A stretch of DNA of 64,000 nucleotides, taken from IMG/VR virus record IMGVR_UViG_3300008954_003475, positions 124,001-188,000 of that record; one strand, 5' to 3'. Shown in pieces: positions 20,082 to 62,782 of the stretch. The position numbers and the translations under genes were made by a program. Numbering within the stretch: position 1 is the stretch's first letter; the number at the start of each line of letters is the position of its first letter. Under the pieces are notes generated by a model. It saw nothing but the letters and a program-made list of their open reading frames with translations, was not told the origin of the DNA and did no database searches. The stretch comes from a virus.

Positions 20082-21737
20082 TTAATATTTGTGTCTCAAA
20101 GTACCCTCTTCTGGAGGGCGCCACCCCGTAGGCGGCTGCCAGCTTGACGGATTATTTGCCTGTTCCGATACAATCGCCTCTGTATTTATAAGAAGCAACG
20201 AAATACTTGCAGCATTCTGCAAAGCTATTCTCGACACCTTTTTCGGATCAATAACTCCGGCCTTAACCAAATCTTCAAACTTTCCATTAACAGCATTATA
20301 TCCAAGGTTAGAATTTCTTGATTTCAAAACTCGTTCAACAACTGCCTCATAATCTTCACATGCATTTTCAACGATTTGTCTAATCGGACGAATACATGCA
20401 TCTAAAAGAACCTTTGCCGCAGGAACCAGATCGGCATCCAAGCCTGACAAGCTAACTTTCTTAGCGGCCCTCAGAAGGGCAATGCCACCACCCGGAACAA
20501 AGCCCTCCTCTATGGCCGCCCTTGTTGCACAAATAGAGTCTTCAACCCTATCCCCCTTCTCTCTCAGCTCAAGCTCGGTTGAGTAGCCTACAGTCACAAT
20601 GGCTGCTTTATTTTGCAAATAAGCCATCCTTTTTCTTACATCAAGCCTAGCAGAATCTCCTATCAACTTGTCTAAGTCCTTCTGATAAATAGTTAGACGC
20701 TCATCTATTCTTGCTTGATCTTTTCTTCCCTCTAATATCTTAGTTAAATATTTATTTACAATAACCTTCTTTGCAAAGCCCAAATCCTCAACCTTAGCCT
20801 TTGATAAAGGATTTCCCAACTCTGTTCCGAATATTTTCGTTCCAGTAAGAATAGACATACACTCAAGCCATTCCGTTCTGCTTCCAGGGTCTATGCCTGT
20901 GGGCGGAAGATTAACGGCAACGGCTTTAATTCTTCCTAATTTATTATTTGCAACCAATGTAGCCAACGCTTCTTGCTTTACTGCTTTTGCTATAATCAAA
21001 ACTGGCAAGCTGTTATTTGATAATTCGTTAAGAAGGTCTATACAAGAAGACATTGACGTAATATCTTCATCACAAATTAAAATATTACAATTCTCAATCA
21101 CAACATCCGCCTGCTGTTCTTCTGTTAAAAATGCAGAAGTTACATAGCCGCTCTCAACCTCTACGCCGTCTACAAACCTAACCGAAGTATCTGGGCCTGG
21201 ACATGCCTCTGCGGCAACGGTCCCTTCTAAACCAACCGTATGAAATGCCTCTGCTATCTTATCGCCTATCTCTTGATCATTGTTTGCAGAAATTGTCGCA
21301 ATATTCCTAAGGGTCTCTAAATCACTTACCTCAGTTGCCATATCATTTAGATTAGTCACAACCTGCTTTACAGCCCACTGAACGCCCCGCTTGAAAAAGA
21401 GAGGACTATAATTATCATCTATTAACTCATTTCCTCTTTTTAAAATCTCATGAGCCAAAACAGTGGCAGTAGTTGTTCCGTCTCCGGCAATAGCTGCAGT
21501 TCGACCCGCAGCTTCTTTCACCAACTGACACGCCAGCTCTTCCACCGGGTGTTCAAGAGTTACCTCTCTAGCAACAGTTACACCATCCTTAGTTATAACG
21601 GGCGCTCCAACATATTTCCCCAGAATTACATTCTTACCTTGAGGCCCCATCGTAACGCCAACAGTCTTTGCGAGCTTTTCTGCTCCAGAAAGAAGCGCTG
21701 ATCGAGCTTCTTTGTTATAAGTTAAATCTTTAGCCAT
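20082..21737 (-). CDS. groEL: GroEL-type (group I) chaperonin
   Basis: This is a double-ring ATP-dependent folding chamber subunit. The 551 residues and the ordered motifs match GroEL throughout: the N-terminal TVGVTMGPQGKNVILGK, the ATP-binding AGDGTTTATVLAHEIL (catalytic-region Asp86), the apical domain, and the C-terminal FVPGGGIALLRA. The usual GGM-rich C-terminal tail is replaced by a Pro-rich tail (WQPPTGWRPPEEG). No GroES-like gene is visible in the window; T4 brings its own co-chaperonin and uses host GroEL, whereas here the large subunit is encoded. It overlaps the RuvC-like gene by 8 nt upstream. A role in folding capsid or other phage proteins is inferred. Confidence 0.93.
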   Translation of the reverse strand: MAKDLTYNKEARSALLSGAEKLAKTVGVTMGPQGKNVILGKYVGAPVITKDGVTVAREVTLEHPVEELACQLVKEAAGRTAAIAGDGTTTATVLAHEILKRGNELIDDNYSPLFFKRGVQWAVKQVVTNLNDMATEVSDLETLRNIATISANNDQEIGDKIAEAFHTVGLEGTVAAEACPGPDTSVRFVDGVEVESGYVTSAFLTEEQQADVVIENCNILICDEDITSMSSCIDLLNELSNNSLPVLIIAKAVKQEALATLVANNKLGRIKAVAVNLPPTGIDPGSRTEWLECMSILTGTKIFGTELGNPLSKAKVEDLGFAKKVIVNKYLTKILEGRKDQARIDERLTIYQKDLDKLIGDSARLDVRKRMAYLQNKAAIVTVGYSTELELREKGDRVEDSICATRAAIEEGFVPGGGIALLRAAKKVSLSGLDADLVPAAKVLLDACIRPIRQIVENACEDYEAVVERVLKSRNSNLGYNAVNGKFEDLVKAGVIDPKKVSRIALQNAASISLLLINTEAIVSEQANNPSSWQPPTGWRPPEEGTLRHKY

Positions 21738-22352: not shown

Positions 22353-22961
22353 CTACTCGAAATCAAAATCGAAATCATCATCTGTTGCTGTTACAACATC
22401 TGCAGTTCCGGTTTCAGCACTCCAGCCCATAACCTCTAAAACATCAGAGGCTTCAGCGGGAGAAATAAGCTTCTCGACATTCACTCTGTCATTAAAGTCT
22501 ACGAATGTAGCCTTAAAGTCAGAGGACAACGGTTCCTTTGGATTCGGAGTAACGCTATAAAGCGGCTGAGAACCCTTTGGACCCTTGAAGATAGTTACGT
22601 CATAAGCCGTAACCTTGCCCCAACGACTGTTATTATACAAAGCCTTAACTCCGTTATAAATCTGTGGACCAACTTCGAGAATGCGAAATTCATCATCCGT
22701 TCTGTCGAGGACCTTTATCAGCCATCGCGCTTGACGCCGAAAGCCTGAATCCTCAAGCCTGCGGACAAGATCTGGATGATCAACCGGACTGTTCACCTTT
22801 CGTCGTGAACCATCTGGCGTAACCACCCAATGAATATAAAACTGAACCGGGTTACCCATAACCCGAACTGTGTTCTCACCCTCTTCTAACCGCAAGAAGT
22901 CGGACTTTGTTCCCGAATCTGCGGCATTCCAATCAACTTCTCCAAATACCATACTTGTCAT
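22353..22961 (-). CDS. Single-stranded DNA-binding protein (gp32-like role)
   Basis: This 202-residue protein has an N-terminal and central OB-fold-like part (LRLEEGENTVRVMGNPVQFY, LIKVLDRTDDEFRILEVG, AYDVTIFKG) and a strongly acidic C-terminal tail (TDDDFDFDFE). Phage SSBs such as T4 gp32 and T7 gp2.5 use such a tail to contact replication partners. No zinc-binding Cys/His set is present, unlike T4 gp32. Its upstream gap carries two inverted repeats (22981-23021), and a strong terminator follows, so it is probably expressed as its own highly translated unit. The assignment is by architecture and neighbourhood. Confidence 0.72.
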   Translation of the reverse strand: MTSMVFGEVDWNAADSGTKSDFLRLEEGENTVRVMGNPVQFYIHWVVTPDGSRRKVNSPVDHPDLVRRLEDSGFRRQARWLIKVLDRTDDEFRILEVGPQIYNGVKALYNNSRWGKVTAYDVTIFKGPKGSQPLYSVTPNPKEPLSSDFKATFVDFNDRVNVEKLISPAEASDVLEVMGWSAETGTADVVTATDDDFDFDFE

Positions 22962-22980
22962 TTCTTTCTCCTAATTATCT

Positions 22981-23021
22981 GTGACACTGTCACGTTCTGT
23001 GGCTTAACCGTAGAATTACGG
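22981..23021 (-). promoter_or_regulatory. Two inverted repeats in the SSB leader
   Basis: GTGACA-C-TGTCAC (22981-22993, plus-strand reading) is a perfect 6-bp palindrome, and CCGTA-GAAT-TACGG (23008-23021) is a second 5-bp one. Both lie 20-60 nt upstream of the SSB start codon in an 80-nt gap. They could be an operator or RNA hairpins for translational control, as with the T4 gp32 leader. Confidence 0.5.
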
Positions 23022-23041
23022 ATTGTTGCCATGTTTTAGTT

Positions 23042-23602
23042 TTAGCCCCACTCTATATCATCGGCATCACCGCCGAAGTCATCAGGCTTAACTGATCTGG
23101 TGGGAAATGGATCAGCCTCAACGCCTACACTATTATACCCTACTCCACTAGCGTTTTCAATAGAATAATCTCTTCGTAAAAATGTTTTTAAAGCATAATG
23201 CCAACCTGAAAAATAACTGGCCTTATTCTCAAGCCACTTCTTACACGCCTTTGCAAGAGTTAGCTGATTACAAGCATCAATATAATCATCATCAGCTTGA
23301 GCGTGCCACTCTTTATCCTTTACAGTTTTGAAACCAGCCTCTTTTGCTTTATGCAAAGCAGCATTTGACCATGTTTTATTTTTATTAGACTCTAAAAACC
23401 CAATCCATCTATCAATTTGAACAATCTTTTCCTGACACAGATTCTGGCCCTCAAGGGTATAGAGCAAACCTTTCTCTGCTATATTCGAATCGACCACCCC
23501 ATTGGTCGGCAACAAGCTTATAACATCTTCTATCGGAGAAATATCGATATCCTCAATAGAAAATGAATTTATTGAAATTTTTTCATGAAGTTTCGACACC
23601 AT
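23042..23602 (-). CDS. Hypothetical replication-module protein, 186 aa
   Basis: I recognise no family. The protein is mainly helical in the middle (WIGFLESNKNKTWSNAAL and LTLAKACKKWLENKASYF) with Trp-rich amphipathic helices, and it ends in an acidic tail (DDFGGDADDIEWG) like that of the adjacent SSB. The shared acidic tail and position between the SSB and polymerase genes suggest a replication or recombination accessory factor, perhaps of the mediator type; this is inference. It overlaps the previous gene by 20 nt. Confidence 0.65.
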   Translation of the reverse strand: MVSKLHEKISINSFSIEDIDISPIEDVISLLPTNGVVDSNIAEKGLLYTLEGQNLCQEKIVQIDRWIGFLESNKNKTWSNAALHKAKEAGFKTVKDKEWHAQADDDYIDACNQLTLAKACKKWLENKASYFSGWHYALKTFLRRDYSIENASGVGYNSVGVEADPFPTRSVKPDDFGGDADDIEWG

Positions 23603-23939
23603 CTTCTCCTAATATTTTTTCTTCTAATCGCTCTAGGCGCTCAACCATATTATTCACAGCCATAAAATTGTCAACTTTAGTTTCAAAGTCCATAATCTTA
23701 TTTATCTTTCGGTCCAAAGCTCTAACCCTTTGATTCATCATAACATTTAATAGAAAAAAGATTACTCCCATAGAAATAGTTTTATTTACAGGCGGATTAA
23801 CAGAAGTTATTATCCCATTTTTATCTGTTTTGAACAAACCTACGAAGTCTGTGTCTCCAAACTGTTCTTTCAAACTTTTGTAATATTCAAATTCGCCATC
23901 GCTTAATTCTAGGCGTTTATTTCCAACTGCCCTTATCAC
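23583..23939 (-). CDS. Small possible membrane/coiled-coil protein
   Basis: This 118-residue protein has one hydrophobic stretch (ISMGVIFFLLNVMM, about residues 55-68), borderline for a membrane helix, followed by a predicted coiled coil (RALDRKINKIMDFETKV and MVERLERLEEKIL). It appears to start with GTG at 23939, overlapping the stop of the upstream gene in a GTGA junction, so translation is coupled. I recognise no family. Confidence 0.6.
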   Translation of the reverse strand: MIRAVGNKRLELSDGEFEYYKSLKEQFGDTDFVGLFKTDKNGIITSVNPPVNKTISMGVIFFLLNVMMNQRVRALDRKINKIMDFETKVDNFMAVNNMVERLERLEEKILGEDGVETS

Positions 23940-24448
23940 TCCGTGACCCTCCGAACTGTTGGACCCGTACCTGCAACGGCCTTTTCCTTAGCAATACGCT
24001 TCAGCCTTGCCACCTTCAAATCTAAATCAGCACCCTCTGCCTCTTCGTCCATCTTGGATAACATTTCATTTCTCACTTCGTCTCTTATGCTGTCATAATC
24101 ATCTTCGTCACCTTGACCTTGGCCGGCTGCATCCTCAAACTCTTCAATCTCCCCTTCTCCATCGCTCAAAGCAGAGCCCTCTTGGAACTCCTGAACATCA
24201 TCGGAAGAAGCTTCTTCCGATCTTGTCGGGAAAAACTCTGTCAACATAAACAATGTTATATCAAAAATCAAATCCTCATTTAACTCTTGAGAAAATGATT
24301 GCTCTAAGATTCTGCTCTTTAAAAGCCTAAGTCTTTGCATGTGCAGATCTCCGAAAAGAGCAGCTCCACAAGACGGGCAGCAATTTTTGACGAGACTATG
24401 CCGCATAGTCTCAACAACTTCAAATTCACACCTTTTACAAGTAATCAT
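23936..24448 (-). CDS. Zinc-ribbon protein with acidic linker
   Basis: This 170-residue protein has an N-terminal zinc ribbon (CKRC at residues 4-7 and CPSC near residue 24), a hydrophobic helical region (FDITLFMLTEFFP), a highly acidic disordered stretch (about residues 75-130) and a basic C-terminus. It starts 4 nt inside the end of the DNA polymerase gene (ATGA-type overlap), so it is made with the polymerase. A DNA- or polymerase-binding accessory role is inferred. Confidence 0.65.
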   Translation of the reverse strand: MITCKRCEFEVVETMRHSLVKNCCPSCGAALFGDLHMQRLRLLKSRILEQSFSQELNEDLIFDITLFMLTEFFPTRSEEASSDDVQEFQEGSALSDGEGEIEEFEDAAGQGQGDEDDYDSIRDEVRNEMLSKMDEEAEGADLDLKVARLKRIAKEKAVAGTGPTVRRVTE

Positions 24449-27400
24449 ACCTCTCTCCCATATACCCTCTCAAGAGAAGAAAGGGCTAAATCTTTTTGGT
24501 CCAAATAAGTATTGACTCTACATATGGCCTTAATTGGAATGCCGTCTTTCAACATAGTCCTATACTTTGCATAATCTTCGGCCCATAACGTTAAGCCACA
24601 AGTATCACCATTTATATCTTCCACAAGATATTTGGCAAACTTCTTGCCTACATTTTTACCATTTTTAATCTTAAATTCCTTAATTTTTGTTTTTATTATA
24701 GCTTCAATCTTTATTCTAGATCCACTATTCAAAGTGTCAATCTGCGACAAAGGCGTTACCAAAGAACCGCCCGAGAAAAAACTCTTAAAAACTTCGTGCA
24801 AATTTCCGCTCAAGGATCTTCCCAACACCTCTCTTTCGAAAAGAAGCGTCTCTTTTCTATCCCAACCCTCTTCTATCTTTCCAAACTCTAGTCCAGACAC
24901 TATCTCTCGAAATTCATTTGAATCTTTTGAAATAGAATGAACCTCAAATAATTCTGTTCTTCTATCTTTTGGAATCTTCTTTAGATTCGGATTATGTTTA
25001 AAAATTCTTGATTCAATCATCTTCTTAATTGCATTTTTAGCCTTCGAACGATACTTCTGATAATTATCATGCATATCCTTTCTTGTTCTGTCAAAACAAT
25101 CTAACGCTCCTGCTTTCGAAAGAGACTGTATAACCGTCTTCCCAACTGTTCTGCTGTCGTTTCTAGACAAGAAATCTGGATAATTTTCATAAGGCTGATT
25201 TTCCATTATACTCTCTATAGCCTTATCTCCAACACCTTTTATTGCAGATATTCCAGTTGAGATATTTCCATCTTCTAATATCTTATACCTGCCAACACTG
25301 TGATTTACGTTTGGCGGCAAAACCTCGATCCCCATCTTTCGACATTCATCAAGATACTCTTGCACTTTATCACTATTTGGATCTTCCGAATTTATTAATG
25401 CACACATAAATTGAGATGGATAATGACACTTTAACCATGCGGTATAAAAAGAAATGATAGAATAAGAAATCGAATGTGACTTATTAAAAGCATATCCGCC
25501 AAGCGGCTCTATATACGACTTCCAAATTTTGCACGCTATCTCATATGACATCTTACTGTATTCCATACAGTCTTTAACAAAGTTTGTTTCTGTGCGCAAA
25601 ACAAGCCTTGGATCCTTGCCCTTTAGCTTGCTTATCTTTCTCAAAGCATCAGCTTGATTCAAGTCCCATCCTGCGCAATCTTGCGCAATAATCATCGCCT
25701 GCTCTTCATACACCAAAACACCATAGGTCTTTTCCAAAGCTCTTTTTAAATTAGGATGCTCATATGTAGCCTTCTCCATTCCAAGCCTTCTCTTTGCATA
25801 GCGCTTCCTTTCGGCTGGCTTACAAGAGGGTCTTCCTATTGCGTTAATTGCAGATATATCTTCTATATTTTTAGGTTTAAGCCTTATACAGAAAGGCGTC
25901 AAAGAAGATTCTAATTGAAATAATCCAACAGTTTTACCCCGACCAATCATAGCATAGGCCTTTTCATCCTTCATGTCTATGTCTTCTACCGTAAGCTTTT
26001 CCCCAGTAGTTTCTTCAATAAGTTTAAATGCATTATCTATTACAGTAAGCGTCTTTAGGCCTAAAAGATCCATCTTTATAAGACCATTCTCTTCACACCT
26101 AGTCTTTTCCCACTGCGTTATATTGTGCCCTTCCTTATCTATTCTCAAAGGAATAGTTTCATATAATGCATTTTCACCAATAACCACACCTGCTGCATGC
26201 ATTGACCAGTTTCTTGTAAGATTTTGCAATTTAGACGCATACGCGTACAACTCTGGATATTGGCTCATATACTCTGACAGCTGTGTGCTTTCAGACATTG
26301 CATCATCTAGAGTTTCTGCATCAGGCATAATAGCCGTTATTGTATTTGCAATTTTAAAAGCAGAAGATTTATCCCCACCAAGCCTCAAACTTCTCGCAAC
26401 ATCTTTAATCACAACCCTTGGAGATAGAGTGCTCCAGTTAGATATAGAAGCAACTTTGTCCGATCCATACTTATCTTTTATATAATCTTTCACAATTCCA
26501 GGATCAGAAAAATCAGAATCAATATCTGGAAAAGACTTCTTTTGATTATTGTGAAATCTTTCAAAAATTAAGTCATACTCTATCGGGTCAACATTTGTTA
26601 TGCCTGTAAGATACGCTACAAGCGAACCAGCCGCCGAACCGCGAGCAGGGCCTACCGGCATTCTTTCCTTTGCCCAATTAACATAGTCTGCAACGATCAA
26701 CATATAGGATGAAAAATTCTTATCTTCCAATACAGACAACTCTGTCTTTACCCTCTCCCAATACTCATCTCTATCATCGTTGTCAAGATGAGACAGCTTA
26801 TCCTTAAAACCCTCGATGCACTTGTATCGAAGATATGCTTTATCATCCGGAACATTAGATCCCAAATTATCCTTCCACTCTCTGAACTCTTTAAAGTCTG
26901 GTTCTTCAGAAACGGAAAAAACAGGCAGCATGGCGCCTTTTGGTTTTATATAAGAAGGCTCAGCACATGCATTCATAATCTTTAATGAATTTTGCATACC
27001 TATTTCGGCAATCTTTGGACCAAAAAAATCAATAATTTCATTATGTGTTTTTAGATACATATCTTGAACACCATAACGAAACCTATCTGGATCATCTATT
27101 GCTTTTTTATCTTTGATAGCAAGCATGCAATCATGAAACTTTGCATGCTCCCTGTCTCTATAGTGAGCATCACAAGTTATGACATAAGGAATGTTATAAT
27201 CACTAGAAATTTTCAACAAAGACTCATTAAGTTTTATTTGATTTACTTCTTTTCCATTTTTATTTACAGCATAAAGACTGTGCGGCTGAAGTTCCAAAAA
27301 AAATCTATCTTTAAAAATACCATTCAATCTTTTAATATGCGACAAAGCCAAATCTTCTTCTTGCTCCGTTATAAGAGTTTTTGCCACGATACCATTGCAA

Positions 27401-51129: not shown

Positions 51130-51639
51130 TTATCTCTCCTCTATTTCAATAGAATGTAATAATCCTTCTTCTTTTCTTGGAATCAAGATCTCAAGAAGCC
51201 CATTTTCCATGGAAGCATCAGCTTTTGATAAGTCAAATGCAGGATTTATAAAATATTTTGTTTTAAAATTCCTTCTAGCAATACCACGAACTATTATACC
51301 ATGTTGAACTCCAATCTTTGGAGACTTAGCTGGATATTCATCTTCATCATCTTTTGTAATAAGACCAGAAGGCTCTGTAGTATCTACTTTAGATCCCAAC
51401 CCATTTATATGAAGTTCATTGTTTTTAATGGCAACCTCAACATCATTCGGAGAATATCCGGCTAAAGCAAAAGCCATATGAAAACCTTTATCATCACACC
51501 ACTGGTCACACCTTGGAAACTTTCCGGCAGATGAAACCTTTTTGTGAGAGGATATATCTCTAAAGAATTCATCATCTGACCATAAAAGGTCTAAAAGCCT
51601 GCCCGGTATAGATACTCTATTCAGTGTTTCTTTCATCAT
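51130..51639 (-). CDS. Small heat-shock protein (Hsp20/alpha-crystallin)
   Basis: This is an ATP-independent holdase. The alpha-crystallin domain is recognisable from GFHMAFALAGYSPNDVEVAI through NNELHINGLG to the conserved ENGLLEILIPRK near the C-terminus. An I-x-I-type end (HSIEIEER) could link oligomers. Hsp20 genes are common in T4-like cyanophages and some others. The start is probably the double ATG at 51636-51639, with GGAGAG upstream; the frame is open to 51651. It overlaps the DUF1360 gene by 23 nt. Confidence 0.85.
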   Translation of the reverse strand: MMKETLNRVSIPGRLLDLLWSDDEFFRDISSHKKVSSAGKFPRCDQWCDDKGFHMAFALAGYSPNDVEVAIKNNELHINGLGSKVDTTEPSGLITKDDEDEYPAKSPKIGVQHGIIVRGIARRNFKTKYFINPAFDLSKADASMENGLLEILIPRKEEGLLHSIEIEER

Positions 51640-51949
51640 CTTTCTCTCCATCTTCTAACATAGTGTCAAAGTAAAAACCAATTGCAAAAACCGCTTCTAC
51701 AATATTTGATATTGACCAACTAAACAAACTTGAAATCGAAGCTCCCCATAACGGATTTATATCCGAATAGAAAGAAGCTACTAGCCCAACCCAAAATCCA
51801 AGACACATTGGGCAATTAACCATCTTTCCTAAGAAGGTTGACTTTTCAGATACAAAATCTCTAACTGGCTCAAATATATCACTTGATGCAAGTATTGTCG
51901 TTAGACCTGCGCATCCAAATATAAAAACAATTAAATCAACTATATTCAT
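51617..51949 (-). CDS. DUF1360-like membrane protein
   Basis: This 110-residue protein has an N-terminal hydrophobic helix (IVDLIVFIFGCAGLTTIL), the family signature CPMCLGFWVG (Cys46, Cys49), and a second and third hydrophobic segment. This pattern fits DUF1360, a small inner-membrane family of unknown role also found in Bacillus and phages. It is the first gene after the strong promoter at 52030-52058, with CGGAG about 9 nt before the ATG. Confidence 0.75.
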   Translation of the reverse strand: MNIVDLIVFIFGCAGLTTILASSDIFEPVRDFVSEKSTFLGKMVNCPMCLGFWVGLVASFYSDINPLWGASISSLFSWSISNIVEAVFAIGFYFDTMLEDGEKDDERNTE

Positions 51950-52101: not shown

Positions 52102-52800
52102 CTATTTAGAATTACGGTAAGCGGCCACAGAGATAGGCCATAAATCTGTGGCTATATCCAGACAAGCTTTAGCCACCTGCTGAATCTCCCACTGTGCCCC
52201 TTCATGCGTCCTAAGATCAATAAACTTCAAAAGATTATTAAGATTTGTTGTCCCATAATACTCAGTATACATATTCTGCGGAAGAACCCCTCTAGCCTGC
52301 TCTCTGCAAACGCCAGCTTCAATCAGCCTGTTATATAGCTTAATACTTATATCATTGTGCAGCCTAACAGCCTCCGACGCGACCTGCGCTGAATATGTAT
52401 CTCTCGGATAGCTAACCAACGGATTGATGAGGTCACTCTCAACACTTGCCTGCCTATTTGATTTATGCTGTGTTCTGAATTCTTTTGGCTCATAAAATTT
52501 AATATTTATATTGGTATACCTTCTGGATATCTCATTAAATGACCAAGTTCTGTGTCTATGATGTTGGCTGCGAATAAACAAAGGAACACGAAAACGAAAG
52601 GTAACAACATTATGTTCTAAGGTAGAAGTATGTTTGTTCTTAATCAAGTAACCAATAAGCTTCTCGTCCTTAGCGTCAAGTGTATTCTTTTGTTCTCCAA
52701 AAGAAACCCTTGCGCTGTTTACAACAGTAAGGTCGCTACCCATATAATCAACAAGCTCTACCTTGCCAATCCCATCATTATACAGATCAATCCTCGCCAC
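52102..52800 (-). CDS. thyX: Flavin-dependent thymidylate synthase
   Basis: ThyX makes dTMP from dUMP using methylene-tetrahydrofolate, FAD and NADPH. The signature RHRxxSxNExSxRY is present as RHRTWSFNEISRRY (residues 82-95). The 232 residues match the family. It has a GTG start at 52800 that overlaps the end of the M16 peptidase gene by 14 nt. It raises dTTP supply for an AT-rich genome and frees the phage from host ThyA. Confidence 0.95.
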   Translation of the reverse strand: MARIDLYNDGIGKVELVDYMGSDLTVVNSARVSFGEQKNTLDAKDEKLIGYLIKNKHTSTLEHNVVTFRFRVPLFIRSQHHRHRTWSFNEISRRYTNINIKFYEPKEFRTQHKSNRQASVESDLINPLVSYPRDTYSAQVASEAVRLHNDISIKLYNRLIEAGVCREQARGVLPQNMYTEYYGTTNLNNLLKFIDLRTHEGAQWEIQQVAKACLDIATDLWPISVAAYRNSK

Positions 52801-53998
52801 GCTCTCCCCTTCCGGTACAGGTCAAGAACAACTGTCGTTGTTCATCAAACATAATATTTGCAGCCTCCGTAACGTCTTTCGCCGTTACACTTTCCAGACT
52901 CTTCATATAATCCTCTATATCTGGGAGGCCAAAAAGCTTTCGCTTAACCGCCCAATAACAAAGACTATAGCTATCTTCCATGGCAGAATAAAATGATGAT
53001 CTCATTTTATTTTTGGCTCGCTGCACTTCTTCTTCCGTTGGTAATTCTATTTTAATCCTAGACAACTCGGTGTCCACAGTTTCAACTGCTTCCTGAACAT
53101 TGTCTTGTCTTGTTGATAGCTCTATCAAACTTAATGCTCCATGCTGCCAATCGTTATAAGCCGTAGACACTCCATACACTAAGCCGCGCTTCTCCCTGAC
53201 CTCTGTGAACAGCCTACAGTCCATCCCTCGTCCCATAATGGTCATAAGCACCTGTATAGCCCCCTCATGTTCAGAGGCTGTGTTTGCCGCTGGCATACCC
53301 ATCCATACATAAGTATGTTCTATACCATCCTTTGCAAGCTCTAAATATCTGCTTTCATCATAAGTCGTATCTTTAAAATTATATGATCTCTTTATTTTTC
53401 CATTTGGCTTTCCAAAATATTTTCTAAGCAATTCCTTTGATTGCTTTTTATTTAAATTACTACAAAGAGAAACAACAGCATCTTTTCTTTGACAGAATTG
53501 AGAATGGAATCTTCTTACTTCATCACAAGTAAACTCTTCAATGCTTTCTTGAGTTCCAATAACAGGTATCTGAATATAATTATCAAAGAAGTTCTTTGAA
53601 AAGTTTTGCCAAATAAACATCATTGGATCATCACCTGATGAAATCTCTTCCTCCTTAACTACTTCTTTTTCCTTTAAAAACTCTTCCTCTGGAAAGATTG
53701 GATTGAAAACCATATCAGAAAGAATTTCTATACAGGGTTCTAGATTTTCATACGGAACGGTTATGTAATATGCAACAGATTCATGTGAAGTAAAAGCATT
53801 TGAATGACCTCCAAGAAAAGCTATCTCTCTTTGCAGTTGCACACTGTCTCTTTTCGCTGTGCCTTTAAACAAAGAATGCTCAAGCATATGGGCCATGCCT
53901 GAGCTATATCCGCCAATGGGTTCAACTCTTGAACCAGCATTGAAAGCAACCATTATCGTTGCTAATCTACTATGTGTCTTAGAGGTTACATGAATCAT
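52787..53998 (-). CDS. M16-family zinc peptidase
   Basis: This 403-residue inverted-zinc-finger protease has the HxxEH site as HMLEH (residues 37-41), with the third zinc ligand Glu near residue 117 (KEVVKEEEI). The C-terminal half contains the non-catalytic domain signature GRGMDCRLFTEVREKRGLVYG. All catalytic residues are present, so activity is expected. The start is the ATG at 53998, with AGGAGG 6 nt upstream; the frame extends to 54046 through a terminator. M16 peptidases cut small or unfolded peptides and are rarely seen in phages. It is the first gene after the terminator at 54021-54051. Confidence 0.9.
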   Translation of the reverse strand: MIHVTSKTHSRLATIMVAFNAGSRVEPIGGYSSGMAHMLEHSLFKGTAKRDSVQLQREIAFLGGHSNAFTSHESVAYYITVPYENLEPCIEILSDMVFNPIFPEEEFLKEKEVVKEEEISSGDDPMMFIWQNFSKNFFDNYIQIPVIGTQESIEEFTCDEVRRFHSQFCQRKDAVVSLCSNLNKKQSKELLRKYFGKPNGKIKRSYNFKDTTYDESRYLELAKDGIEHTYVWMGMPAANTASEHEGAIQVLMTIMGRGMDCRLFTEVREKRGLVYGVSTAYNDWQHGALSLIELSTRQDNVQEAVETVDTELSRIKIELPTEEEVQRAKNKMRSSFYSAMEDSYSLCYWAVKRKLFGLPDIEDYMKSLESVTAKDVTEAANIMFDEQRQLFLTCTGRGERGED

Positions 53999-54010: not shown

Positions 54011-54051
54011 TAAGATAAAAAAAGGGTGGAGACATTGTGTCTCCACCCTTT
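54011..54051 (-). terminator. Rho-independent terminator after the VWA-metallopeptidase gene
   Basis: On the minus transcript a perfect 14-bp stem (AAAGGGTGGAGACA with TGTCTCCACCCTTT) and 3-nt loop are followed by TTTTATC. It sits 4 nt after the stop of the VWA-domain gene and ends about 20 nt before the M16 peptidase start. Confidence 0.85.
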
Positions 54052-54054
54052 ATA

Positions 54055-55197
54055 CTACCGATTTTTTTGTTCAATAACTACTTTCTTTCCATACGGAAAC
54101 TCTACATCCTTATCTTGGTCACAGACTGCCCACAAGACTCTTGTTTTAGGTCTATCTGGAAACGGAGCGTAACCATCTGTAAATACAACCAGACCGTCAT
54201 ACTTCTTTTCGTCTGCTAACTCAATCACAGGATGAAAGCAAGTCCCGCCTCGACCCTTTATATCAATCTTTCTTGCTTTCTTACCGAAAGGTTCAGGGTC
54301 GCCATAGATTTGAGTATCGAACTGAACAAAGTCCACTTTTACATGGTCAATCATTCCATTTAACTCAGTAGCAAAATACTCAAGCTGTGTATCAGATACA
54401 GAACCTGATGTATCGAAGGCCACTAGCAGCTTGCTAGTATAGTTTCTCTTTGTGCCTGGAGAGGCAATACCATAGCGCCTATTAGGACGCATACGGGTAT
54501 GCTTCCGACCCATAAGAATCAACTTATTAATAAACCATCTAACTTCCTTTTTCCAATTAACAATTGGCTTATTAGCGGCAATAATCTGTGCAGCAAGGTT
54601 TCCGGCAATATTGCCCCAGCCCTTCTTCTCCTGCTCTTTAATCGCCTTTTCTGCAATGTTTCTAATCTTTTCTTCTACAATATCATCATCGAATTCATCC
54701 CACATAGAATGGTCGTCAACAGTATCTCCTTTGCCCTCAATAAGAGTATCGAAGTCTTTGCCTTCGCCTTCACACTCTTTCTTCAACTTCTCGTAATACC
54801 ATTCCGAAGATTGATTAGACTCCAAGTTGAACTGATGCGGATACAAAGCACCTTCTGGAAGGCCCTCAATATGACAATTGATAGCACAGTCAGCTGCAAT
54901 ATTGTATCCTCGCGGATTATATGCAAAGTGCTTTGCGCGTGTAAGATGATGAAGCAAAATATGCAAAGCCTCATGCTTCAATACACTACGCAACTCTGTT
55001 GGAGACAGAGTGTCAATAAAGTCTGGATTATAATACAAGGCTAAGTCAACCCTGCGAATAACTCCAACCGCCAAAGTCGGAACCTTCTTTGTTTCCTTTT
55101 TATTCAAATGGAGGAAAACCTCTCCATACAAAGGCTGGAATGTTACGAGTTTAGAAATCGCTGATTCTAGCCTATTTTTCACTTGGGTATTAGCCAT
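54055..55197 (-). CDS. VWA-domain metallopeptidase-like protein
   Basis: This 380-residue protein combines an N-terminal zinc-peptidase-like domain, HEALH (residues 75-79), with a C-terminal von Willebrand A domain near residue 260 holding the MIDAS motif DTSGSVS. The layout matches the DUF2201-type proteins that pair with MoxR ATPases, and the MoxR gene lies directly upstream. The pair probably works as an ATP-driven remodelling or chaperone complex. Whether the peptidase site is active is unknown. The gap upstream (55198-55263) has no clear ribosome-binding problem: AGGAGG precedes the ATG. Confidence 0.88.
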   Translation of the reverse strand: MANTQVKNRLESAISKLVTFQPLYGEVFLHLNKKETKKVPTLAVGVIRRVDLALYYNPDFIDTLSPTELRSVLKHEALHILLHHLTRAKHFAYNPRGYNIAADCAINCHIEGLPEGALYPHQFNLESNQSSEWYYEKLKKECEGEGKDFDTLIEGKGDTVDDHSMWDEFDDDIVEEKIRNIAEKAIKEQEKKGWGNIAGNLAAQIIAANKPIVNWKKEVRWFINKLILMGRKHTRMRPNRRYGIASPGTKRNYTSKLLVAFDTSGSVSDTQLEYFATELNGMIDHVKVDFVQFDTQIYGDPEPFGKKARKIDIKGRGGTCFHPVIELADEKKYDGLVVFTDGYAPFPDRPKTRVLWAVCDQDKDVEFPYGKKVVIEQKNR

Positions 55198-55263
55198 AAT
55201 ATCCTCCTAAAGACTTGAGACACCTGATTCCCTGTGCCTCCCTGTGGGGATGAAGTTTTGTGC

Positions 55264-56340
55264 TTAAGAAGAAAGGTAAATCTTCTTCAAGTGCTCACGG
55301 AAATCTTCATCATTCTGCCATTCCATAACAATCTTCTTGCTCTTTTGACCGCCAAGAAGTCCGACCCAAGCCTGCGATGCAACATCACAAGGAAGCATCA
55401 TAAAGAATTCTCTCAAATTCTTCCGCTGCTTTTCCTTAGTCTTAGTCAAAGACCGTTCGTTAACCTCTGCAACAACAGAGCGAGAAAGAGCCGCGACAAC
55501 CTCAATGTCATTACATGCGGCTTCAACCTTATCCTTCACCTTCTCAAAGCTGTCAAGAATATCGGAAGGACGCAGTTGAGAGAATTCGTTAGTCAGAAAC
55601 TTCTGAAACATAACAGCAATCTCTCTGCCTACCCAACCCTTTGTAACCTGAGTTAGCATACCATCATCAGTCCGCGAGTCAAGCCCCATTCCAATAAGAG
55701 TATCACTGAAGGCAACCCAACTTCTACGAGAAGGATAAATCCTTCCTGCTTCGAGGTTTCCAACAGGAGGGTCTAGCAGGTTTTGATTGCGGTTAATAAA
55801 CTCTACCACAGCCTCATGCACATCGGTTGCTCTGGCCCATTCCATCCACTCATTAGCAGAAGGGTCAAAGTCAATATGAAACCACCTATCATGCAAAGCT
55901 GGGTCTAGCTCAACAACATCGTAATCATCATCGGAGTTAACCGCAGCTACAACGCGCCAACCATCCGGCAGCCTTTCTCCGTCCAAACGTCGGTCTAGAC
56001 AGATTTCGAACACAGCTTGCAGTACATCCTTTGATGCTCGATTCAATTCATCAAAGAACAAGATTCCTTGACTACCCTGTGCCCGAGGCCACCACTCTTG
56101 CTTAAGAAAGCGAGTAATGTTTTCTTTAGCATCGAGATATGGCATACCCTTAATGTCGCCAACCTCACACTGTGAAAGGCGAACGTCCCAAAAACCACAA
56201 GGCTTTCCGCTCGCTTCCTCAATTTCTTCTGCAACCTGACGAACAACAGAGGACTTGCCAACACCATGCTTCGCATGAAGCATGATAGACTTATCCATCG
56301 GCATTGTTTTCAGAATTTCCTTAGTCTGATCAATATTCAT
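55264..56340 (-). CDS. MoxR-family AAA+ ATPase
   Basis: This 358-residue ATPase has Walker A as HGVGKSS (about residues 25-31), Walker B as GILFFDELNR (92-101) and a sensor-1-like VVAAVNSDDD. The sequence resembles the MoxR/RavA type of AAA+ proteins, which act with VWA-domain partners to activate or remodel other proteins. It is followed by the VWA-metallopeptidase gene. A putative target could be host defence or phage assembly. GGAG precedes the ATG. Confidence 0.88.
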   Translation of the reverse strand: MNIDQTKEILKTMPMDKSIMLHAKHGVGKSSVVRQVAEEIEEASGKPCGFWDVRLSQCEVGDIKGMPYLDAKENITRFLKQEWWPRAQGSQGILFFDELNRASKDVLQAVFEICLDRRLDGERLPDGWRVVAAVNSDDDYDVVELDPALHDRWFHIDFDPSANEWMEWARATDVHEAVVEFINRNQNLLDPPVGNLEAGRIYPSRRSWVAFSDTLIGMGLDSRTDDGMLTQVTKGWVGREIAVMFQKFLTNEFSQLRPSDILDSFEKVKDKVEAACNDIEVVAALSRSVVAEVNERSLTKTKEKQRKNLREFFMMLPCDVASQAWVGLLGGQKSKKIVMEWQNDEDFREHLKKIYLSS

Positions 56341-56433
56341 TTTTTCTCCTTTTCAATAAGAAAGCAACTTTATGGAGAATTATCCCCACACCAATCCATA
56401 GTTGATGTAAAATCATAATTAAAAAATATTACC

Positions 56434-58699: not shown

Positions 58700-59614
58700 C
58701 TATTCACTGCTATCAACCATGCTCTGCAATCTGTTCGCAAGATAATAATGTCCAGAAGCAGAAGGCATCAGCCAAGGAAGATTGTCCTTAGAGAGACAGT
58801 CTAGTAGATTGGACACGACCTCTCTGTCTGTACAATCTACAAACAACATAACCTTCCTTTCCAATGCGTCAACCTCTTTCTGAACAAAAGCTGCCAAAGC
58901 TACAGATTCTCTCTTCGTATCCCGCTCAAGCCTTTTAACTCTGTACTTTTTATCTGAAATTTCTCTAGAGAACTTATTAGTTATACTCCTTTTGATATTC
59001 TTGGGAGAAGACTTTGCAATCTTCTTTAAAAGATTATCTGAAAGAGCACTATTATCAAAAGCACTCTCTAAAATATGAAGCTTTGTATTGACAGCGCCCT
59101 TTTCGCGCTTCACCTTGCTCCATACATAATCATAAAAAGCAGAGTCTGTTGAGCTACACATACCTGCATGATGCCAAATCATATACAGTTTGTGCTTATC
59201 TTCTTCCAAAGCAAACTTGCACATTTCCGATAAATAGTCAAAGTTTTTATCGACCTGTGGAAGCAGTCTGACTCTAAGACGATTATCTTCTTCATCCTCA
59301 TTAACCTTAATAAGGCTATACATATCTGTAACAAACTTTAAGCAAAAGTCCTGTGTCAAAGACTCAATCCTTGTAGTTGAATTGCAGACTCTCTCTGCTA
59401 TGTTTAGCAACTCGTCTCTTGTGTCTGGATAATTCTTCCAAATAAATCCAAACGTAGCGTTTGTAATAATCTTTTCTGCATCCTTACTTTTCCAGTAGGA
59501 ATCAATATCGTTAATCGCATTTGGAATAGCATAGTTCATCACCGTTGTGATGAAATCATCATTAACATCAAACTTGCTATCAAAGGTTACTTGTTTAAAT
59601 ACTTTATTAGACAT
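58700..59614 (-). CDS. Hypothetical helical protein, 304 aa
   Basis: I recognise no family. The sequence is mostly alpha-helical with a repeated helix-turn-helix look (INDIDSYWKSKDAEKIITNA, LPQVDKNFDYLSEMCKFALE), as in HEAT/ARM-like solenoids. The C-terminus has a charged patch followed by CTDREVVSNLLDCLSKDN. It is adjacent, 8 nt downstream, to another helical protein (59623-60354), and both lie in the metallo/AAA cluster. A scaffold or adaptor role is inferred. Confidence 0.65.
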   Translation of the reverse strand: MSNKVFKQVTFDSKFDVNDDFITTVMNYAIPNAINDIDSYWKSKDAEKIITNATFGFIWKNYPDTRDELLNIAERVCNSTTRIESLTQDFCLKFVTDMYSLIKVNEDEEDNRLRVRLLPQVDKNFDYLSEMCKFALEEDKHKLYMIWHHAGMCSSTDSAFYDYVWSKVKREKGAVNTKLHILESAFDNSALSDNLLKKIAKSSPKNIKRSITNKFSREISDKKYRVKRLERDTKRESVALAAFVQKEVDALERKVMLFVDCTDREVVSNLLDCLSKDNLPWLMPSASGHYYLANRLQSMVDSSE

Positions 59615-59622
59615 ATTGTCTC

Positions 59623-60354
59623 CTATCGTCCAGCGGTGATTCTTCGTTCAAATTGACGAGAAATCCAGTTATTTTTAACATTTCTATTTGCAACAAGCAT
59701 TGGCAAATAATCAAGAGGAATCTTCTCTAACAACAAAGAGAATGGCCCTCGGGCAATTTCTTTTGTGAATCCCTTTAGCTTGCTGTAATAATAAGGCGCT
59801 CTTGCAAGACCTTCGTATCTAATGTCTGCAATCTTATCGTCTAACATTTCATCTAGACACTCAACGGGGCCTAACCTATTGTAGTAAATCTTTCTAACCT
59901 TCTTACACTTATGCCCCTTCAACTTTCTAAGAGCTTTAATGCTACAAAAGGTTACAGCCATCACCTGACTATCGCCACTTCCATTTATTGCAACTTCATC
60001 AATAAGTGAAATATCTGTATAAAGACCCTTTTGTATTACCAAGGACTTTGCCAAGTCTACATCAGATTCCTTTAGAATCTTATCCCCTATCTCTACATGC
60101 ATTGGAAGCATGTAGGCTAGAACCTTTTGAGCCATCCAATAACCACGATTCCAACTTCTAGTGCGATCTGAGTCTGCAAAGACAATCTCAAAAAGATTTG
60201 AATCTAAACAAACTTTTTCTAAGTCACTCTTTTTCACAGAAGAGCAAACAGCTTGCATCTTCTCATCCAAATCTGACCATGAAGCTGACGCAGAAAGCTC
60301 TTCAAGATCATTAGCAAGTTTCTTCAAACTAGGACTCATTTTTGTTTGACTCAT
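59623..60354 (-). CDS. Hypothetical helical-repeat protein, 243 aa
   Basis: I recognise no family. It has several Trp-rich and Cys/Lys-rich helices (RSWNRGYWMAQKVLAYMLP, FCSIKALRKLKGHKCKKVRK) that resemble HEAT-type repeats. A conserved-looking C-terminus (NRNVKNNWISRQFERRITAGR) is basic. It overlaps the end of the DHH gene by 26 nt and is followed by the 304-residue helical protein; the two may interact. Confidence 0.65.
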   Translation of the reverse strand: MSQTKMSPSLKKLANDLEELSASASWSDLDEKMQAVCSSVKKSDLEKVCLDSNLFEIVFADSDRTRSWNRGYWMAQKVLAYMLPMHVEIGDKILKESDVDLAKSLVIQKGLYTDISLIDEVAINGSGDSQVMAVTFCSIKALRKLKGHKCKKVRKIYYNRLGPVECLDEMLDDKIADIRYEGLARAPYYYSKLKGFTKEIARGPFSLLLEKIPLDYLPMLVANRNVKNNWISRQFERRITAGR

Positions 60355-61186
60355 CAGTCACTCCAGTGTTTAATACATTTAAATCAGCTACTCTAAAACC
60401 AGATGCATTCTTGTGTCCACCGCCACCAAACTCAGCAGCAATCACAGATACATCATCACCATCTTCTTTCGACCTAAGCGAAAACCTATAACTCTCTCCA
60501 TCATAATAATACGCAGCAGCAAAAGGCTCTCCGTCTGCTAACTCTGATGCCATTTCTGATTGAAAAAATGGAGCGTTAACAATGGGAACTTCTTTGCCTA
60601 AAATATTTGTTCTATAAGAATTTAACAAAAGAGATCTAATCAAGTTTCTCTTGTACTGCAAGATTCCTTCTCCCATATTCTTTACGCGTTTCCATCTAAT
60701 AGATTCTGCTGCATCTAAATAACTATGTAGCATATCCCAATTATCAAATGTTTTCTCGAAAGAATCTACGGCAGACAGCACTTCTTCTGTAAATGGAAGT
60801 TCCCACTTCCACAAGTCTCTATCTTCAACATACTGAATAAGGAGAGGAACATTATCATCTGGAAACAAATAATCCCAAGCCAAATATGCTCCAGAATGAT
60901 TCATATCAAAATAACAAAACTCTAAATCTCCCGAATGTTCTTGAGCCGACTTATGATGATCTAACACAACAAGGCTGCTAGCCTCTTGTTCCATTTCCAG
61001 CATTATAGCCCTATCATATGAAAAGTCAACAATAAATACATCACGATCTTTAACGCAAGGTCTTTCCTCGCCATGAGTAACAGGGATATATTCAGCACTC
61101 GCTCCAAACTTTCGCCTAAAAGCCCATGCTGCACCGAATCCATCGGGACAATTAGCATGGTATAAAACCATTATTTTATCTGACAT
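60329..61186 (-). CDS. DHH-family phosphoesterase
   Basis: This 285-residue enzyme has the N-terminal metal motifs YHANCPDGFGAAWA (Asp at residue 15), IVDFSYDRA and VVLDHHKSA (the DHH at residues 76-78), and a C-terminal DHHA1-like EFGGGGHKNASGFRV (about residues 250-265). This domain order fits NrnA-type oligoribonucleases, pAp-phosphatases or c-di-NMP phosphodiesterases. It is shorter than RecJ. Possible roles are recycling of short RNA or signalling nucleotides, or degrading defence cyclic nucleotides; the sequence does not decide. It joins PurA by a TAATG overlap. Confidence 0.88.
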   Translation of the reverse strand: MSDKIMVLYHANCPDGFGAAWAFRRKFGASAEYIPVTHGEERPCVKDRDVFIVDFSYDRAIMLEMEQEASSLVVLDHHKSAQEHSGDLEFCYFDMNHSGAYLAWDYLFPDDNVPLLIQYVEDRDLWKWELPFTEEVLSAVDSFEKTFDNWDMLHSYLDAAESIRWKRVKNMGEGILQYKRNLIRSLLLNSYRTNILGKEVPIVNAPFFQSEMASELADGEPFAAAYYYDGESYRFSLRSKEDGDDVSVIAAEFGGGGHKNASGFRVADLNVLNTGVTDESNKNES

Positions 61187-62202
61187 TAAATTACCTCTGG
61201 TGAATACGAAAACTTAACATACTCTACAAGGGGTGAGTTGTTTCGTATTGTTGTTTCAACAAAGCTTATCATTTCGTCTAAGCTTAAGAACCTAACCAAT
61301 CTTCCACCATAACTGAGCTTAAAATGCCCTAATTCATTTATTATATCACACTTACTTATAACAAGGTTTGTTGTCCCTGTTATGTTAACTGCTCTAATTA
61401 GCATATCCAGATTGAGCCAATTAACCTTTCTTCTTCTTCCGGTCGTGACTCCAAACTCTTGACCTAAATCTGTAAGAGCCTTTAACACAGGATCTTCAAG
61501 CAATCTATTTGGGAACCTTGGGTCCTCTCCGCTCTTTGTATCATAGATCTTTGCAACGCCCCAAACCTTATTAATCTTCTGAGTTGGAAAGCCTATGCTG
61601 CAAGCTCCATAAGGCAATGTGATACTTGATGTTACATAAGGATAAAGTCCATTATCAATATCAAGCCAAACACCTTGGGCTCCTTCACATAACAGATTGC
61701 CATTTAATTCTTCATTCCAAACAAAGTCTTTGTCTAAAACATCAACGGCAAGAGTTCCAACCCTTGCTGCTTTATCTGCATAACAAGGGGCTATGCCTCG
61801 ACCTGTTGTGCCAAGCTTTGCTGCCAAATGTTCTTTATCAAAAGCTATATGTTCCTCTGTAACAATATGGCAATTTGGAGCCACCTTTACTAATGACGTA
61901 TCAAAACCACTTTTTGATAAATAGTCAATCTCTTTATAAAAAGATTCTGGATTCAAAACACATCCTGGGCCTATAAGGGACTGAACTCCATGAAAAACTC
62001 CAGATGGAATCAAGTGAGTTTTGTACTTCTCTCCTTCTACGAATACGGTGTGTCCAGCATTATTTCCACCGCCCCAACGGGCAACTATATCATAATAATT
62101 AGAACCATCTTCATTCTTTGTAGAAGCTAACTGACTGGTGACTTTTCCTTTAGATTCATCCCCCCAAGCTAGTCCTACAACTATATCTGCTATATCAATC
62201 AT
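61186..62202 (-). CDS. purA: Short-form adenylosuccinate synthetase
   Basis: This makes adenylosuccinate from IMP, Asp and GTP. Conserved elements are WGDESKGK (catalytic Asp15), the GGGNNAGHT loop with the catalytic His, GTTGRGIAPCYADKAAR, GAQGVWLDIDNGLYPYVTSS, TTGRRRKVNWL, and the guanine-binding SKCD. The 338 residues are far shorter than E. coli PurA (432) but like archaeal PurA and viral PurZ. The catalytic Asp is kept, whereas the viral PurZ of 2-aminoadenine phages usually replaces it, so PurA activity is favoured. The adjacent Gly of the WGDEGKGK loop is Ser. The ATG at 62202 has AGAGGA upstream and fits the family. Confidence 0.88.
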   Translation of the reverse strand: MIDIADIVVGLAWGDESKGKVTSQLASTKNEDGSNYYDIVARWGGGNNAGHTVFVEGEKYKTHLIPSGVFHGVQSLIGPGCVLNPESFYKEIDYLSKSGFDTSLVKVAPNCHIVTEEHIAFDKEHLAAKLGTTGRGIAPCYADKAARVGTLAVDVLDKDFVWNEELNGNLLCEGAQGVWLDIDNGLYPYVTSSITLPYGACSIGFPTQKINKVWGVAKIYDTKSGEDPRFPNRLLEDPVLKALTDLGQEFGVTTGRRRKVNWLNLDMLIRAVNITGTTNLVISKCDIINELGHFKLSYGGRLVRFLSLDEMISFVETTIRNNSPLVEYVKFSYSPEVI

Positions 62203-62782
62203 CGCTATCCTCTTCGCTTCCATTAAGAATGTTTATAACCTTCTTAATTTTACTGGGACGGCGAAGAAAAGTAATACCCTCTTTATGAGTAGAAACAGTT
62301 GCTGTGAATGTAATCATTTCACCTACATTAAAGCTATGTGCCTTAGATGTTTTGAAATACCACTTCCAACCTCTTTCGTCAACACAGATGATAGCTGGCA
62401 TAGGATATTCGGTATTCATCTTTGCTTCTGCAATCTTATAAATACCAAGCGGTCCAAGATCTAATCTTGCTCCAACCTCAACATCAGGCTCGTCTAACAT
62501 GGTTGCTTTCACAATTGAGTCAACCCATCTATTGAGAGATCCAATCCACTTCTCAGTTAGTCTATGAGGATTTTCTGTAACAACAGAAATGCTTGATTTA
62601 AGAAACTCATTGTTTGGACTTTCTTGTAGCTTTACAGCAAGAAGGGGAATAACCATAGGGTTTAATTGCTCTAGGTTTTCTTGACCTACTCTGGCGGTAT
62701 CAACCCCGCTCTTCTTGCGTCTATTGGTGGCAGACTTTCTGGACTTCTTTTTCTTTCGTCCATCACTAAAGATATTTATCAT
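62195..62782 (-). CDS. Hypothetical basic-N-terminal protein, 195 aa
   Basis: I recognise no family. The N-terminus is strongly basic (DGRKKKKSRKSATNRRKK), likely binding nucleic acid or membrane. The C-terminal half is beta-rich (ARLDLGPLGIYKIAEAKMN, PAIICVDERGWKWYFKTS), perhaps an OB-like fold, then an acidic end (GSEEDSDD). It overlaps PurA by 8 nt. Its start is directly after a terminator hairpin, with no clear Shine-Dalgarno sequence; GTG at 62797 is a less likely start because it lies inside the hairpin. Confidence 0.6.
   Translation of the reverse strand: MINIFSDGRKKKKSRKSATNRRKKSGVDTARVGQENLEQLNPMVIPLLAVKLQESPNNEFLKSSISVVTENPHRLTEKWIGSLNRWVDSIVKATMLDEPDVEVGARLDLGPLGIYKIAEAKMNTEYPMPAIICVDERGWKWYFKTSKAHSFNVGEMITFTATVSTHKEGITFLRRPSKIKKVINILNGSEEDSDD

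Follow-up and report, generated by a model that had tools for sequence, protein, structure and literature searches.

A large phage of an uncultured lineage encodes, as adjacent genes, a MoxR-like AAA+ ATPase and a partner protein in which an N-terminal zincin-like metallopeptidase domain (peptidase activity predicted) is followed by a C-terminal VWA domain. The domains, the invariant active sites, the co-divergence and co-occurrence of the two genes and the strong purifying selection on them were all seen directly. It is very likely that the pair belongs to the class of NorQD-like, ATP-driven remodelling machines, and we see about an even chance for the whole explanation, i.e., a remodelling and cutting machine that acts on a conserved target belonging to the phage itself, probably part of the virion in assembly or maturation.

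The gene pair and its active-site motifs

The two genes lie in an IMG/VR virus record of 221,878 bases, of which a stretch of 64 kb (bases 124001-188000), here called the window, was analysed. The record was assigned to a phage because it encodes a terminase and a major head protein, and its TerL is at most ~26% identical to the TerL proteins of the listed cultured phages. Both genes of the pair are on the minus strand with 66 bp between them, and each of the two complete open reading frames (ORFs) is preceded by an AGGAG-type ribosome site (Table 1). For the comparison of residues, 29 ATPase-VWA pairs from phages and bacteria, N4 gp24/gp25 included, were aligned. The zinc ligands, the N-A-D-N motif and the MIDAS residues were invariant in 29/29 pairs, and the ATPase residues were kept in 27 to 29 of them; the sequence-only reading, which had described two adjacent and complete genes with Walker A/B, HEALH and MIDAS motifs, was thus borne out, with the residues present in at least 27 of the 29 pairs.

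Table 1. Features of the gene pair and its surroundings (positions in the window)
Feature	Position	Strand	Support
MoxR-like AAA+ ATPase, N4 gp24 family, PHROG 1297, 358 aa	55264..56340	-	Pfam, PHROG, fold matches
Walker A AKHGVGKS, residues 23-30	56251..56274	-	G28/K29 in 27/29 pairs
LSQCEVGDIKGMP, residues 55-67, presumed helix-2-insert region facing VWA finger	56140..56178	-	G65, P67 in 28/29 pairs
Walker B ILFFDE, residues 93-98	56047..56064	-	D97 in 27/29 pairs
Sensor-1 Asn135	55936..55938	-	29/29 pairs
Arg152, presumed arginine finger	55885..55887	-	29/29 pairs
Arg206, presumed sensor-2 arginine	55723..55725	-	29/29 pairs
Small stem-loop in ATPase gene leader, behind TATA-like element	56371..56390	-	Hairpin scan
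DUF2201 protein, N4 gp25 family, PHROG 1314, 380 aa	54055..55197	-	Pfam, PHROG, model
Zinc motif HEALHILLHH, residues 75-84	54946..54975	-	H75, E76, H79, H84 in 29/29 pairs
Second catalytic-domain motif N99-x-A-x-D103-x3-N107, next helix	54877..54903	-	29/29 pairs; helix 95-107 in model
Basic loop, residues 231-255 (..TRMRPNRRYG..PGTKR..), candidate pore finger	54433..54507	-	R241, P247 in 27/29 pairs
MIDAS DTSGS, residues 262-266	54400..54414	-	D262, S264, S266 in 29/29 pairs
MIDAS Thr319 (GGT)	54241..54243	-	29/29 pairs
MIDAS Asp341 (FTDG)	54175..54177	-	29/29 pairs
Intrinsic terminator, 14-bp stem and T tract, right after VWA stop	54021..54051	-	Hairpin scan
M16 metallopeptidase, behind terminator	52787..53998	-	PF00675/PF05193

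The ATPase matched the Pfam families AAA_5 (E 1.5e-8) and AAA (E 1.3e-5), both above the cut-offs, as well as PHROG 1297, annotated as 'ATPase', over nearly its full length (E 7.7e-61; profile positions 10-342 of 356). The Pfam MoxR family model AAA_3, which was searched first, scored 15.2 bits against a 27-bit cut-off, and a whole-record search gave no match. A single-chain structure model of the ATPase (pLDDT 74, pTM 0.56) was compared with the PDB; 17 of the 18 top matches were NorQ chains, alone or with the VWA partner NorD, and the remaining one was CbbQ, with E values down to 8e-7 and TM scores normalised by query of 0.38-0.43. Judged by the solved folds nearest to the model, the ATPase is MoxR-like, of the NorQ/CbbQ type; by sequence, a search of the PDB found no significant relative of either the ATPase or the VWA protein. 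Segments for a putative helix-2 insert and pre-sensor-1 hairpin are in place in the model, but pLDDT falls below 50 at residues 60-76. By analogy with NorQ, residues 55-67 are presumed to be the helix-2-insert region that would meet the finger of the VWA protein. In many relatives, an upstream alignment judged by eye only shows a TATA-like element before the ATPase gene (window 56340-56420, minus strand), with a small stem-loop of varying sequence behind it; together they may represent a promoter with a 5' leader hairpin.

The VWA protein matched both halves of DUF2201, the N-terminal metallopeptidase PF13203 (E 4e-23; 82.8 bits vs a cut-off of 23.2) and the VWA domain PF09967 (E 3e-19; 69.9 bits vs 26.4), and it matched PHROG 1314 over its full length (E 7.8e-71; profile positions 9-393 of 394). 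PHROG 1314 is labelled 'HNH endonuclease'; we rejected this label, since Pfam shows a DUF2201 metallopeptidase-VWA protein with no HNH family among the matches at E up to 1. The wrong label has by now spread across many phage records. The single-chain model (mean pLDDT 80, pTM 0.60) matched VWA domains, including the midasin MIDAS domain, phage DUF2201 proteins and ORF892 of Acidianus two-tailed virus (ATV). Strict invariance of HExxH and N-A-D-N suggests catalysis. The basic loop of residues 231-255 directly precedes VWA strand 1, the MIDAS strand, and is modelled at low confidence; by analogy it is a candidate for a NorD-type pore finger.

Conservation and co-occurrence of the pair

The gene order ATPase, VWA, M16 metallopeptidase was kept in 25 relatives of the phage. 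Because these relatives had been found with the pair as query and hence cannot test its loss, DHH and PurA genes were used as independent anchors. All 10 loci with a DHH identity of at least 53% carried the pair, so the loss in close relatives that the sequence-only reading had named as its refutation was not seen among the close-lineage loci found through the DHH gene. A more distant DHH locus (L167) also has the pair, with M16, and the remaining distant DHH loci represent different gene contexts. An apparent stop codon within the VWA gene of two relatives (L012 and L013) was discounted as a one-codon shift at the extreme end.

When the proteins shared with two related genomes were ranked by conservation, the ATPase came 3rd of 112 and 2nd of 108, and the VWA protein came 5th in both comparisons, placing the pair beside the major head protein and TerL. 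The pN/pS values, which are rough as synonymous sites are near saturation, lie at 0.06-0.18 in the pair, compared with 0.18-0.34 in neighbouring enzymes and 0.30-0.54 in two helical proteins encoded nearby. Altogether, the pair is under strong purifying selection.

Across phages and bacteria, the distance matrices of the ATPase and the VWA protein were correlated with a Mantel r of 0.80, with none of 5000 permutations as high, a figure in which shared phage ancestry remains. The two genes are also found together without close linkage: in Vibrio phage pv27 they are 45 kb apart, in Bacillus phage G the distance is 4.4 kb, and in LL12 they lie on opposite strands; the partnership of ATPase and VWA protein outlasts the loss of linkage. 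The pair was further found in AR9, LUZ7, CBB, PA5oct, Thermus phage phiFa, Vequintavirinae, and Planktothrix and Rhizobium phages. With the CBB proteins as queries, 803 of 50,697 phage records had an ATPase match, a count that may take in other AAA+ proteins, and 711 had a VWA match, with similar genus counts. Bacteria of several phyla encode the same pair, usually with the ATPase gene just upstream, and its basic function is therefore not phage-specific. Seemingly lone VWA genes in Oceanimonas, Microbacterium and a Marinifilaceae MAG were dismissed after a direct search revealed an adjoining ATPase match.

A gene for a DUF3150-like protein of ~290 aa is a repeated neighbour of the pair, seen in several phages and bacteria; it lies between the ATPase and VWA genes in five loci (L024, L072, L083, L087 and L096) and behind the VWA gene in L085. 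Between distant pair loci, only the pair itself and this gene recur, and its product is possibly a third component of a sub-branch. The present phage gave no match to it in a search that also missed controls, and profile comparison assigned probabilities below 1% to hel1, hel2, coil and a 218-aa protein, which were rejected as candidates for such a component.

Neighbouring genes and transcription

A hairpin and T tract comparable to the intrinsic terminator behind the VWA gene, with a different stem sequence, was detected in 23 of the 25 relatives, i.e., in 24 of 26 lineage members overall. This terminator is taken to end the transcript of the pair. Behind it stands the M16 metallopeptidase gene, whose listed start (GTG 54046) must be wrong because this GTG is inside the terminator; ATG 53998, with AGGAGG upstream, is the likely start. 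In every relative examined, M16 comes next after the VWA gene, with an insert only in L011, and its HxxEH motif is kept in 26/26, but M16 evolves 2-4 times faster than the pair, and the conserved terminator weakens the candidacy of M16 as its operon partner. TGA codons near the M16 gene of one genome (G002) were set aside as they lie outside the 401-aa ORF. M16 peptidases are almost unknown in phages; matches in the phage collection came only from Bacillus phage G (gp2) and unannotated faecal contigs. In phage G, the M16 gene adjoins the large terminase gene, far from the pair of that phage.

The two helical proteins had been suggested as possible adaptors of the pair. Their ORFs (58700-60354) exist, with no family match above cut-off in Pfam or PHROG. 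Few genes of the region change as fast (median identity ~32%). They went undetected in some pair-bearing relatives, and the neighbourhood of the pair in distant phages and bacteria yielded no homologues; an adaptor role was rejected on rate and distribution.

Several other genes of the phage deserve mention. An 824-aa ORF (L056:2397-4871, minus strand; record ~22397-24871) combines a glycosyltransferase domain with a tubulin/FtsZ GTPase domain. Its tubulin half (PF00091, E 6e-12; motif GGGGTGSSS) matches gp138 of Bacillus phage G, and nothing similar to the ORF was found in the two related genomes; it may be a fusion, or two genes may have been joined. The genome holds two separate GroEL-like chaperonin genes (window 20082-21737 and L062:10654-12258, both minus strand), an Hsp20 gene read by eye (window 51130-51651), and genes for a glutamine synthetase (L062:17879-18961), an asparagine synthetase (L063:5551-7203) and an A-type Fe-S biosynthesis protein (L063:8563-8889), all three on the minus strand. 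A short PurA-like protein (window 61186-62223, minus strand) also matches PurZ models; by eye it keeps the WGDE aspartate, which we take to be expected of PurA, not PurZ.

Proposed mechanism, alternative roles and known systems

In the mechanism we propose, the MoxR-like protein would form a hexameric ring, and the VWA domain of its partner would plug this ring through the short basic finger (residues ~231-255). ATP hydrolysis would move the VWA domain, in a coupling modelled on NorQ-NorD, and the force would reach both the zinc-peptidase domain at the N-terminus and a substrate held at the MIDAS site, which would thereby be opened and, as predicted, cut. The most likely target would be a conserved phage complex, probably a component of the virion as it assembles or matures.

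A target of the phage's own is favoured by the conservation ranks beside the head protein and TerL together with the pN/pS of 0.06-0.18; such a conserved target fits the slow evolution best and is the most likely one, and the disarming of a host factor is less likely. A role in the virion is favoured by mass spectrometry of phAPEC6 virions, which yielded 6 peptides of the MoxR homologue gp265c (PMC7247149; the paper does not name its VWA partner, gp264c), by the ESI-MS/MS note that the PA5oct ATPase record carries, by the position of the pair beside virion genes in CBB and phAPEC6, and by the link of the ATV pair to tails; the absence of the pair from RPP1/RLP1 virion proteins counts against it. 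Expression timing weakens a role in assembly, since N4 gp24/gp25 are middle genes (PMC4193335) and the AR9 ATPase gene (g028) follows an annotated early promoter, both earlier than is typical of assembly genes. This objection is softened by RPP1, in which a middle-expressed second structural module lies beside the gp24/25 homologues. Among the usual prohead proteases, S78 and ClpP were not found; the search for S77 matched no control, so the missing prohead protease was dropped as support for assembly. We regard it as a long shot that the pair is a general ATP-powered maturation protease of phages. Such a protease would open and cut a defined set of structural proteins in N4-like phages, jumbo phages and others, either alongside the usual serine prohead proteases or as their substitute, and in this lineage it would work with M16.

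The early promoter of AR9 and the middle expression in N4 would also suit a machine for host takeover, which opens and cuts a conserved host complex early, e.g., a transcription, translation or defence component, as would the rIIA gene that LL12 has near the ATPase gene, the anti-sigma factor annotated there next to the VWA gene, and the presence of the pair in phages of very different hosts. This reading is rather improbable, however, given that the pair falls in the slowest-evolving protein class of the lineage, that bacteria encode the same pair, that MoxR was found in virions and that PADLOC models, searched at E up to 0.1, matched neither the pair nor M16 nor the helical proteins. The sequence-only reading had offered either a host-disarming or an assembly function and had pointed to conflict systems: assembly is supported as one possible role, the very strong conservation disfavours a host-directed one, and membership in a conflict system found no backing in the PADLOC families. 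Its description of the pair as an ATP-driven remodelling system is supported.

MoxR-VWA pairs of known function serve to insert metal or to reactivate enzymes (PMC13036017, PMC9976466). In the manner of NorQD/CbbQO, the present pair might likewise remodel a phage enzyme that depends on a metal or cofactor and serves nucleotide metabolism or replication; the zincin would then be a metal-handling or substrate-docking domain. Nucleotide-metabolism genes do occur near the pair, namely ThyX, IMPDH and PurA in this phage, thymidylate synthase in CBB and phAPEC6, and a dCTP deaminase that adjoins N4 gp25, but no nucleotide enzyme is common to all pair-bearing loci, and the strictly invariant HExxH and N-A-D-N motifs speak for catalysis; we consider such a maturation role unlikely. 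A three-part proteolytic chain in this lineage, in which the pair unfolds and cuts and the adjacent M16 then clears peptides, would account for the constant place and intact HxxEH of M16. It is nevertheless very improbable in view of the strong terminator between the pair and M16, the faster evolution of M16 and its occurrence in few phages vs hundreds with the pair, with phage G holding the two far apart. Chance or an annotation artefact, with no functional pair, has next to no probability; nothing spoke in its favour, and it is refuted by the invariant active sites, the co-divergence and the co-occurrence.

The preferred reading, a remodelling and cutting machine for a conserved phage target, yields a testable model with named residues in ring, finger, MIDAS and zincin. 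The pair is core in N4-like phages and present in roughly 700-800 of 50,697 phage records, with one half labelled HNH endonuclease, and solving its role would give function to conserved genes in several major phage groups.

Among known systems, N4 gp24/gp25, which are core genes of N4-like phages, Schitoviridae (PMC4193335, PMC7650795, PMC2784036), share with the present pair both families, the gene order and the invariant motifs, at ~25% identity; N4, a 70-kb podovirus, differs in having no M16 neighbour and in its other surroundings. Iyer et al. (2021) described, in jumbo phages, a MoxR and metallopeptidase-vWA pair of identical architecture, for which they proposed a role in virion assembly combined with proteolytic processing (PMC7824862); their pair belongs to 'group 2.2' jumbo phages, whereas the present phage represents an uncultured lineage. 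NorQ-NorD, CbbQ-CbbO and RavA-ViaA likewise join a MoxR-like ring ATPase to a VWA partner. In NorQD, the VWA domain inserts a finger into the ring pore, and one strand links the finger to MIDAS (PMC9976466, PMC13036017), and the finger of NorD is located before VWA strand 1, the place of our candidate finger; unlike the present VWA protein, NorD has an N-terminal domain that is no zincin, and the known targets of NorQD-type systems are cellular enzymes. In the archaeal virus ATV, p892 (VWA) binds the virion MoxR protein p618, and the pair is linked to tails (PMC4124505). This is a virus-encoded MoxR-VWA pair like ours, its interaction shown and its ORF892 among the matches of our VWA model, but it has no peptidase domain (PMC7824862), and extracellular tail growth is peculiar to ATV. 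Both the pair and the idea of assembly are already known; as far as the literature shows, the additions made here are the rank of the pair among all genes, the linkage-free test of co-occurrence, the terminator, the finger candidate and the M16 neighbour.
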